A stretch of 64,000 bases of DNA from Arthonia radiata (lineage: Eukaryota > Ascomycota > Arthoniomycetes > Arthoniales > Arthoniaceae). The notes below the pieces were generated by a model. The model was not told the DNA's origin and did not search any database. It worked only from the letters and a program-made list of their open reading frames with translations. Shown in pieces: positions 32,660-38,137 of the stretch (positions are counted from its first letter, which is position 1; every line of letters starts with the position of its first letter). A program made the position numbers and the translations under genes. The stretch lies in assembly GCA_002989075.1 (NCBI GenBank), contig PSQN01000015.1:1798001-1862000 (forward strand). The letters run 5' to 3'.

Positions 32660-33739
32660 TGCGGTGCTCCTCTCCTCCTGGGCATTTTAGTGCATATCCG
32701 CCCAAGATGCGGTGTCACGCAACGGCGCAGTCTCACTGACGGACAACTTGATCGACAGCGCCGAAGCGTGATACTCTGCGCCCAGTCACATCATTTTCAG
32801 ATTGGAGAGAAGGCAGCAGCAAGCCTGAGAGCAGCCCGCACATCGCTAGGAGGAGGCTGCATTGTATTGTGGTGGTTAAGCGGCTGGCGGCAATCTATCG
32901 AACGAGCCGCCCAAGCTTTGCAGGAAACGGTGTCCGCCGTCCAGAGGAACATGGAAGCAGAACATTGAAAGGAAGCTAGGGAGTGGGCTCAAGCCGTTTG
33001 GCAGCTCGATATCAAGAACGTGATTGTGCTGCCATCTTGCAGTACGATTGTGCCTTCTTTGCTTGAGATACCTGAGTACATCATGAGGTCAGAGCACCAC
33101 GAGCCGAAATGAGCGTCGTAGCTGAATCGAAGGTACGTCAAGAATCAACACGCTGGTCTGAAATGAATGACCGAGAGTCATTCGAAATACAGTCCTTCCG
33201 GAAGGCTGTCTCTGCACGCCATGTCAGCAAATGGTCCAAGAGAACGATGAAGACAAGGTAGGCGGTCTCGCAATGGGTCAGAGTCTAATTTATATTCATG
33301 ACAGCGTGGCTGTTCAAATAAGAGGTACCAGAAAATAGTATGAAAGGTCATCATTGTGGGAGTGGAAAGTTTGATAGTTTAGAATGAGATGTTCCACTCA
33401 CGTCTATTCGTTTGAGAACTGGCTTTGAGGACTGGAGGCGTGAGGTCAGTGATATGACTGCTGCCGCCATTGATCCGTCGCAGCACCGGTCGAGCCGACA
33501 TAATACTGCTTCGACAGTGCCATCTTCGGCCAGAGAATCACAGTGACGTAGTCAACACATTGATCCATTGAGCATACTCGCAAGTGTTTGGCTCGCTTGA
33601 GCGAATCATGTCGAAAGGAAATGGCCAGGAGGGTGACAGACGTTGGAGAAATATCTCACGTCTTGGCACTACGCTAGTCCTTTTTCAACTCCACGCTCGC
33701 GCTCGATGTCAACATAATTATATAATCGTTGCTTTTACG
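32660..33739. other. Intergenic stretch before the tRNA-like locus
   Basis: About 1.1 kb with only short unsupported ORFs. A TATA-like run (aattatataatc, 33716-33727) lies about 30 bp upstream of the first tRNA-like block. That is the position of TATA elements at many fungal tRNA genes. Confidence 0.4.
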
Positions 33740-33752
33740 ATGCCGAAGCTCA

Positions 33753-33939
33753 GCCTTCTTGGCGCAGTGTAAGTCACTGGACATTTTACGTGTCTCCGAG
33801 CCCTCACTGACGTTGCATAAAGGGTAACGCGTGAGTAATACCAAAATCTTCTGGGGTCATACACCTCATACTGACTGTCCCCGAGGTCGCACTCGTAACG
33901 GACATGCGAAGATCACTGGTTCGATTCCAGTAGAAGGTG
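33753..33939 (+). tRNA. tRNA-Thr(CGU)-like gene split by two GT-AG intron-like inserts
   Basis: Three blocks (33753-33768, 33823-33830, 33886-33939) join into one cloverleaf when two GT-AG segments are removed: 33769-33822 (54 nt, GTAAGT...CACTGAC...AAAG) and 33831-33885 (55 nt, GTGAGT...TACTGAC...CGAG). The acceptor GCCTTCT pairs with AGAAGGT (one G-U). The D arm has A14, G15, G18G19 and A21. The anticodon stem TCGCA/TGCGA is perfect, with loop CTCGTA..A and anticodon CGT. The variable arm is AGATC. The T arm is ACTGG TTCGATT CCAGT, with an exact B box at 33918-33928. Six extra bases (ACGGAC) lie at the usual 37/38 intron site. A 37-codon ORF from 33740 also reads through the same three blocks, so a tiny spliced protein gene is the rival reading. 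Confidence 0.5.
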
Positions 33940-34226
33940 CGCGCAAGAATGCTGTCCAGTAGAGATATTCTGTGATGCTGACAGACAAACTAAAGGCATT
34001 AGCATCTCTGGTCCATCATTTCTTTTGCCCTTTCACTCGATTTTTTTTACTTGGACAGGGCAATTGCAAAGCATCGAGCAGCAACACGATTCCAGGATTG
34101 CTACTGACAATGCAACGGCGATGCGTTCAAGATGACAATCAACTTCTTGCTTTTGATCCTTATAGGGACAGACCCACGCAACAGCAGGGACAAGGACGAC
34201 GTATGGATGAGTGAGTATAAACGTCC

Positions 34227-37094: not shown

Positions 37095-38137
37095 ATGGCG
37101 TCCTCTTCATCCGCGGCGAACCCACTGCTATACTCCTGCATAGCTCACAACACCACGATCCTCGCGGAACATACAGCGTCGCCCGCATCGAACACATCCT
37201 CACTCGCCTCCGTCATCCTCCCGAAGATCTCGCACGACCAGCCACAAAAGCTCACATACACACATCAACAAAATCTGATCCACTACGTCGCGGACGCTGC
37301 CTCCGACCATCCGCAAAGCTCCAGTGCAGGCGGGTTAACCTTCTTCGTAATTGGCACCCAAGCTCTCGGCAGGCGCGTGCCCTTCGGCTACCTCGTTGAG
37401 ATTAGGAAGCGCTTCTTTGCTCAGTATGATGCTACGCGCACAGACTTCGCGGGCTTGCCAGCGTATGGCTGCGCAGCGTTCAATGGGCGGCTGAAGGAGC
37501 TGATGACGGAGTTCGGGTCGACGACAGCTGGCCAGAACGACGCCATAGGCAAGGCTCAAAAGGAGATCGAGGATGTGCGTGGCATTATGACTGAGAACAT
37601 CGAGCGGGTGCTGGAGCGTGGCGAGCGGCTTGACCTCCTCATCGACAAGACGGATCGACTAGGTGGCAGTGCCCGCGACTTCAGGTTCAGAAGCAAGGGT
37701 CTGAGGAGGCGGATGTGGTGGAAGAACGTGAAGCTTATGGTGCTGCTGATCGTTGTTGTCGTGTTCCTGATATACCTTTTCGTCGGATTTGGCTGTGGCC
37801 TGCCTGGTAAGTCTGGCACGCTCCGTTTTTCATCACTTTTCCACACCGCTCCCCACATTCTCCCGAACTTGTTTCTGCTACATCCTTTGATCAAGACAAA
37901 AAACTCGAAGTGGCAGAGAAGAGTGCCATGCAGAAGGGAAACTCCCCATCTGGGAATTGAACCCAGGTTACCGCCGTCGTCCAGTCATGTCTTGCGACAT
38001 TGTCGGGTGACAAGGCGATGTGATACCACTACACTAATGAGGACTTGTGCAAGCAACGTTTTGAACTTTTTGTATAAGCTTTACAAGAGACTTGCTAACG
38101 GTCAATGATAGGCTGGTCGAAGTGCATGCATCACTAG
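37095..38137 (+). CDS. VAMP7/Nyv1-like longin R-SNARE (synaptobrevin)
   Basis: Exon 1 (37095-37806) and exon 2 (38112-38137) flank a 305-nt intron and give 245 residues. The longin domain covers about residues 1-125 (LLYSCIAHNTTILAEH, GLTFFVIGTQALGRRVPFGY). The R-SNARE helix contains DVRGIMTENIERVLERGERL with its central Arg. It is followed by LDLLIDKTDRL and a C-terminal anchor (LMVLLIVVVVFLIYLFVGFG). The short last exon gives the ending CGLPGWSKCMHH. It likely acts in fusion with vacuoles or late endosomes. The unusually long last intron contains a tRNA-Asp on the other strand. An alternative acceptor near 37,895 would give a different tail. Confidence 0.88.
37942..38043 (-). tRNA. tRNA-Asp(GUC) with a 31-nt intron, nested in a SNARE intron
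   Basis: The reverse strand folds as tRNA-Asp. The acceptor TCCTCAT pairs with ATGGGGA. The D arm is GTGT AGTGGTA TCAC. The anticodon stem TCGCC/GGCGG encloses TTGTCA..C with anticodon GTC, and the T arm is CTGGG TTCAATT CCCAG. A 31-nt intron sits at the canonical site after position 37. The discriminator is G, as expected for Asp. A T-run about 40 nt downstream on this strand could end Pol III transcription. The gene lies wholly inside the last intron of the opposite-strand SNARE gene. Confidence 0.9.

Follow-up and report, generated by a model that had tools for sequence, protein, structure and literature searches.

Positions 33753-33939 of the DNA stretch analysed here (64,000 nt of the Arthonia radiata assembly, called the window below) very probably represent a working nuclear tRNA-Thr(CGU) gene with two U2-type spliceosomal introns, one of at least 17 such genes. 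From the intron signals, their recurrence from gene to gene and our failure to find intact copies, we infer with high confidence that the interrupted tRNAs are spliced by the spliceosome.

Structure of the tRNA-Thr(CGU) gene

The gene consists of three exons separated by introns of the mRNA type. Its features are as follows.

33719..33726, + strand: TATA-like element TATATAAT, 34 nt upstream of tRNA-Thr(CGU)
33753..33768, + strand: exon 1, with the acceptor 5' strand, the D stem 5' strand and the D loop up to position 16
33769..33822, + strand: spliceosome-type intron 1, 54 nt, in the D loop after position 16; GTAAGT donor, CTGAC at 33807-33811, AAG acceptor
33823..33830, + strand: exon 2, 8 nt, with the remaining D loop and the D stem 3' strand; agrees with the Thr(UGU) paralogue
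33831..33885, + strand: spliceosome-type intron 2, 55 nt, between positions 25 and 26; GTGAGT donor, CTGAC at 33871-33875, GAG acceptor
33886..33939, + strand: exon 3, with the anticodon arm, variable loop, T arm, acceptor 3' strand and base 73
33894..33896, + strand: anticodon CGT (ARAGORN, joined exons)
33898..33903, + strand: ACGGAC, 6-nt insert at 37/38, interpreted as an ordinary tRNA intron of very small size (ARAGORN i(37,6))
33918..33928, + strand: B box GGTTCGATTCC, intact
34023..34026 and 34041..34048, + strand: first downstream oligo-T runs, T4 and T8, 84 and 102 nt past tRNA-Thr(CGU)

The joined exons amount to 78 nt (GCCTTCTTGGCGCAGT + GGTAACGC + GTCGCACTCGTA[ACGGAC]ATGCGAAGATCACTGGTTCGATTCCAGTAGAAGGTG). 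ARAGORN reads them as tRNA-Thr(cgt), its anticodon loop enlarged by a 6-nt insert, and reports no tRNA gene in the unspliced DNA of the locus. The earlier note had described a tRNA that is complete only once two mRNA-type introns are removed, and this is the best-supported reading of the locus. The letters and coordinates of both GT-AG segments are correct, and so are the sites proposed for them, in the D loop and just before position 26. A 7-bp acceptor stem (G1-U72 counted), perfect anticodon and T stems, an exact B box and the anticodon CGT had also been listed, and all of them are seen in the joined sequence; the T stem has 5 bp, and the ARAGORN drawing gives 5 bp for the anticodon stem and 3 bp for the D stem. 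The six-base piece noticed at 37/38 is the ACGGAC insert, which is missing from the Thr(UGU) paralogue. The two donors and the CTGAC branch points hold as well, but the distance of about 15 nt does not: from the branch adenine to the last intron base it is 12 nt in intron 1 and 11 nt in intron 2.

Base 73 of the gene is G, and G73 combined with G1-U72 counts against its function; the combination is common to Thr(AGU) and not found in Thr(UGU). A U72-G73 end is present in Thr(CGU) (33939) and Thr(AGU) (locus L080), and C72-A73 in Thr(UGU). The structure of lowest folding energy for the joined RNA is not the cloverleaf, which likewise counts against the reading. Judged from the anticodon alone, the mature tRNA would be charged with threonine and decode ACG.

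In the raw window the Thr(CGU) gene is absent from both ARAGORN and Rfam output. The sole tRNA that Rfam finds there (37942-38043, minus strand) is an ordinary tRNA-Asp(GTC) with a 37/38 intron only, situated about 4 kb from the Thr gene. Two proteins encoded in the window have their best named relatives in Coniocarpon cinnabarinum, at 75% and 65% identity, and these relatives point most probably to the class Arthoniomycetes.

tRNA genes of the assembly

The searched assembly comprises 33.5 Mb in 16 contigs. We located and read 31 tRNA genes; 17 of them contain 26 spliceosome-type introns outside position 37/38 and 14 have no such intron. The Rfam tRNA model gave at least 16 matches at E <= 0.001 and at least 20 at E <= 10 (63 of 1,065 candidates scored). 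Seven of the 20 are interrupted: Arg(CCG), Gln(CTG), Leu(CAG), Ala(TGC), Arg(TCT), Leu(TAA) and one that is perhaps Gly(TCC). The B-box pattern GGTTCRANYCC occurs at 114 sites of the assembly versus 186 for a mirrored control pattern, so it is not enriched. From the 100 sites first taken, 11 fell in known genes; among the other 89, every site with a complete T stem was read. The B-box sites added the interrupted His, Asn, Thr(TGT), Thr(AGT), Lys(TTT) and Tyr genes together with an ordinary Ala(AGC). Eight of the remaining 14 sites were read, one is a known gene and five (GGTTCAANYCC) lie outside the catalogue. Two Leu(CAA) genes were added by a D-arm pattern, and the initiator tRNA-Met, with three introns, was found by the removal scan described below.

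Every Thr gene located (three) is interrupted, and the same applies to the His, Asn and Tyr genes (one each) and to the sole initiator Met gene found. The ordinary genes, with isotypes assigned by reading, are Cys, three with anticodon CAT, Arg(TCG), Arg(CCT), Trp, Gln(TTG), Phe, Pro(TGG), Lys(CTT), Leu(AAG), Ala(AGC) and Asp. The Phe and Pro genes stand in tandem at one locus (L016, C7:416.1-416.6k), and the 37/38 insert of both is unusually long. The Rfam, B-box and D-arm searches revealed no gene for Gly(GCC), Val, Ser, Ile or Glu, nor for some isoacceptors, and the catalogue is to this extent incomplete; these genes may be too heavily interrupted for the search patterns. At two tRNA-like loci, L092 (C10:1653.4k) and L146 (C15:1542.3k), the anticodon arm is unreadable even after single GT-AG segments are removed. 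Inspection revealed no tRNA at L137 and L139, which match the D-arm pattern, nor at L140-L145 and L147 (B box) and L148-L150 (D-arm match); L148 and L149 have no Rfam match at threshold.

After joining of exons, ARAGORN recognized a tRNA in all 17 cases and gave the isotype as read in 12. Of the other five, Thr(AGT) and Leu(TAA) received no isotype, Leu(CAG) was called SeC, Asn was called Ala and the possible Gly was called Trp. When the same genes were submitted unspliced, with introns up to 250 nt allowed, ten yielded nothing and seven an isotype different from the reading; Leu(CAG) is called SeC in both states. The T stem is complete (5/5) in all 17 joined tRNAs and the acceptor stem (7/7) in 16. 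The 6-nt insert of Thr(CGU) has counterparts of 9-36 nt at position 37/38 in other interrupted genes, according to ARAGORN. Inserts of 6-15 nt, which is near the lower limit for substrates of tRNA endonuclease, occur in L022, L080, L096, L123 and the Thr gene of the window.

Search for intact copies

Sixteen of the 17 joined sequences were compared with the assembly at E <= 10. Each of the 21 matches returned was an exon of an interrupted locus, the second Leu(CAA) gene being among these loci, and no intact copy of an interrupted tRNA appeared, at a sensitivity that was not complete: Asn and initiator Met failed to match even the short exons of their own genes, and the search also missed the Arg(TCG) paralogue, an ordinary gene that shares a T arm. 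A whole intact copy should nevertheless appear in such a search. The T loop of the initiator, GGATCGAAACC, occurs at 8 sites of the assembly, and only one of them combines a T stem (by inspection) with the Met exons; this site carries the three introns. An intact tRNA-Thr(CGU) elsewhere, which the earlier note had named as evidence against its reading, did not turn up in our searches of the assembly. The note had also considered a short protein conserved across the same exons. This is excluded, since the three Thr genes, CGU, UGU and AGU, have exons that align as tRNAs, and their introns occupy five different sites.

Removal scan and shuffled controls

GT-AG segments with a donor and a branch motif were enumerated and removed singly or in pairs, and ARAGORN was run on each variant. 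Among 2,225 variants of the window, tRNA calls arose at the Thr(CGU) locus only. Seven variants of this locus gave calls; one is Thr(cgt) and the others result from different removals and have different isotypes. Twenty-five dinucleotide-preserving shuffles of the window, with 61,477 variants, produced 0 tRNA calls. The scan of assembly loci gave 21 locus entries, of which three overlapping ones are a trivial match at the uninterrupted Arg(CCU) gene; its branch filter excluded TTGAC and TTAAC, so that Thr(UGU) and Ala(UGC) were missed.

Signals and relationships of the 26 introns

All 26 introns are GT-AG and 49-59 nt long, with G at +5 in 25 and T at +6 in 24. The motif YTNAY with its A 8-18 nt from the intron end is present in 26/26, as against 26% of internally shuffled introns, and CTRAY in 20/26, as against 6%; the boundaries were picked by eye with GT-AG in mind, and these signal counts are inflated by it. 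The branch A, counted as the first base, lies 10-16 nt from the end. Group I and group II introns, which run to hundreds of nt and contain a catalytic core, were rejected, given the length of 49-59 nt and the lack of any Rfam intron family over threshold in the window.

Comparison with paralogues provides a check that is free of the bias in boundary choice. It covers ten introns, with 18 bases for each. At six of them the joined sequence agrees with a contiguous paralogue, which lacks the intron, at 14-17 of 18 bases, and exon-intron readings reach 12 at best: Arg(CCG) intron 2, Leu(CAA)a intron 1, Gln(CTG), Arg(TCT), Lys(TTT) and Thr(CGT) intron 1. Four junctions are not supported, namely Arg(CCG) intron 1 and Thr(CGT) intron 2 (11/18 each), Thr(TGT) intron 1 (10/18, with the exon-intron reading higher at 12) and Thr(TGT) intron 2 (13/18). 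For the three Thr junctions the comparison is with a paralogue that has an interruption of its own close by; for Arg(CCG) intron 1 the anticodon loop differs.

The two Leu(CAA) paralogues, L136 (C11:479k) and L132 (C2:1852k), have a common intron site in the T loop and only one of them has a second intron, so gain or loss of introns must have continued after the duplication. Similarity among the 26 introns is not detectable above chance: the best local score is 13, compared with maxima of 11-16 in 20 shuffled sets. As no pair exceeds the shuffled maxima, an origin from one family of introners was rejected.

Introns of mRNA, U6 and 5S genes

Seven mRNA introns of the assembly, obtained by spliced alignment of homologous proteins, measure 50, 51, 52, 55, 58, 86 and 86 nt; the longest two exceed every tRNA intron in length. 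Their donors include GTCAGT, GTTCGT, GTATGT and GTACGT, and six of the seven donor hexamers also occur among the 26 tRNA introns. The branch A lies 11-13 nt from the end in all seven. A 42-nt insert proposed in an actin-related gene has no branch motif and was excluded from this set, and spliced alignment with one further protein (P0241) gave no intron.

All three U6 genes over the Rfam threshold (L153, C12:477.5k; L154, C14:1994.2k; L155, C2:1988.2k) are interrupted by an mRNA-type intron of 51-56 nt at a common site, with the branch A at 12. Oligo-T follows the second exon in 3/3, and a TATA word lies upstream in two of the three stretches read. Since all three U6 genes have the intron, a gene class made elsewhere by RNA polymerase III is evidently spliced here. 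At least seven 5S rRNA genes (47 of 1,547 candidates scored) match the full model and are uninterrupted, which contrasts with tRNA and U6.

Transcription signals

A TATA-like word is present within 140 nt upstream of 13/17 interrupted and 8/12 ordinary genes versus 8.6% of random stretches; T4 follows within 70 nt in 15/17 and 9/12, respectively, versus 15% of random stretches (the counts cover 12 of the 14 ordinary genes). Thr(CGU) has its TATA at -34 and no oligo-T within 70 nt downstream, the first T4 being at 84 nt. The ordinary Arg(CCU), Trp and Phe genes likewise have no oligo-T within 70 nt. Introns split the A box in Thr(CGT) (intron 1; the B box is intact), Thr(AGT) and Tyr, and the B box in both Leu(CAA) genes and in Arg(TCT). 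Initiation by RNA polymerase III is guided by TATA in fission yeast, and we suggest the same for the interrupted tRNA genes.

Alternative explanations

Short motifs are common and our boundaries were selected with GT-AG in mind, so intron-like words could by chance lie beside tRNA-like debris. The probability of this is practically negligible: the shuffled variants gave no tRNA at all, the same pattern is repeated in 17 genes, the exons of isoacceptors agree and the paralogues agree at six introns. We rejected chance on the shuffle control. It might further be argued that intron-like insertions have killed these tRNA genes, leaving dead relics, and that the real tRNAs are encoded elsewhere. 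This appears very unlikely to us, even though the catalogue lacks Gly(GCC), Val, Ser, Ile and Glu and intact copies were possibly missed. The exons have the T and acceptor stems of intact tRNAs, the 16 joined sequences searched match nothing outside interrupted loci within the sensitivity of the search, the single initiator site with a T stem and Met exons carries three introns, and all His, Asn, Tyr and Thr genes located are interrupted. We rejected relics on the intact exons and the failure to find intact copies.

The introns might also be cut by the tRNA-splicing endonuclease as ectopic introns of the bulge-helix-bulge (BHB) type, their GT-AG ends being incidental. Such tRNA introns at odd positions are known (PMC3978253), the catalytic domain of the endonuclease has two matches in the assembly, many genes have short 37/38 inserts and a relaxed central helix can be formed by 11/26 introns versus 26% in the control. 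A strict helix of 4 bp is nevertheless at control level (1/26 versus 3%), and this led us to reject BHB introns; such introns would not be expected to start with GT, end with AG and contain a branch motif in 26/26 cases. We consider the endonuclease a highly improbable agent of their removal. A less radical modification, which keeps spliceosomal introns, supposes that RNA polymerase II makes capped precursors from which the tRNAs are cut out. The TATA words are indeed spread more widely than expected for a fixed polymerase III start (30-86 nt upstream, one at 137), A or B boxes are split in several genes, as the B box is in Leu(CAA) and Arg(TCT), and Thr(CGU) has no nearby oligo-T. Polymerase II remains an unlikely choice all the same, considering the T4 downstream of 15 of the 17 interrupted genes versus 15% of random stretches, and the oligo-T (3/3) and TATA words (2/3) of U6.

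Model of maturation and its meaning

Our preferred reading, spliceosomal introns in a polymerase III transcript, leads to the following model. RNA polymerase III would transcribe Thr(CGU) by means of the upstream TATA and the internal B box. The spliceosome would then read the GUAAGU and GUGAGU donors, the CUGAC branch and the AG, and take both introns out; these signals resemble those of the mRNA and U6 introns. The cloverleaf would form only after intron removal, whereupon RNase P, RNase Z and tRNA-splicing endonuclease could act. The endonuclease would finally remove the 6-nt piece at 37/38, and the same is expected for the other short 37/38 inserts.

It is likely that the spliceosome has become an obligatory machine of tRNA maturation in this lineage. 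Judging by gene structure, 17 of the 31 genes, including the only initiator found, would need it, the promoter boxes would tolerate introns and U6 would be in the same position. We know of no tRNA that needs the spliceosome. A spliceosomal intron, a tRNA gene and an intron in a polymerase III RNA are each familiar, and to our knowledge their combination and its scale were not known before. A literature search gave no precedent for spliceosomal introns in nuclear tRNA genes within its scope, which was titles and abstract openings and comprised few subscription journals and not bioRxiv. The nearest precedent is U6.

If our assumptions are true, the spliceosome is directly needed for translation and is routinely reached by small non-coding transcripts other than U6. 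Spliceosomal introns could then enter essential non-coding genes at almost any position, and standard tRNA finders would overlook much of a genome's tRNA set. The Leu(CAA) paralogues that differ in one intron make intron gain and loss in tRNA genes directly testable. According to a review, eukaryal pre-tRNA splicing is accomplished by endonuclease and ligase and not by transesterification as in the spliceosome (PMC3400036); the 17 tRNA genes with mRNA-type introns would represent an additional route.

Comparison with known systems

Introner elements are mobile spliceosomal introns and could account for many young introns in one lineage; the 26 introns described here differ in being no more similar to one another than shuffled sets. 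Ordinary eukaryotic introns at 37/38 are also present in this genome, but the 26 spliceosome-type introns lie elsewhere in the tRNA and have branch motifs.

Ectopic tRNA introns in the D arm, anticodon arm, variable region, T arm and acceptor stem, sometimes several per gene, are described for Cyanidioschyzon merolae, the Guillardia nucleomorph and some archaea, and they are mostly of the BHB type, cleaved by the tRNA endonuclease, although many of those in Guillardia have no defined motif (PMC3978253, PMC3400036). The likeness lies in the many arms affected and in the multiple introns per gene. The difference is that here BHB is at control level and spliceosomal signals are present.

Introns of the mRNA type occur in the U6 genes of some fungi, as the earlier note had stated. 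In fission yeast, RNA polymerase III makes the small RNA U6 from a gene with a spliced mRNA-type intron, and the position of this intron next to catalytic nucleotides of a spliceosome component is explained by reverse splicing (PMC10484740). The U6 genes thus resemble the interrupted tRNA genes in having an mRNA-type intron in a small-RNA gene of polymerase III. U6, however, is itself part of the spliceosome, whereas the hosts here are tRNAs, with up to three introns per gene at many sites and in every arm.
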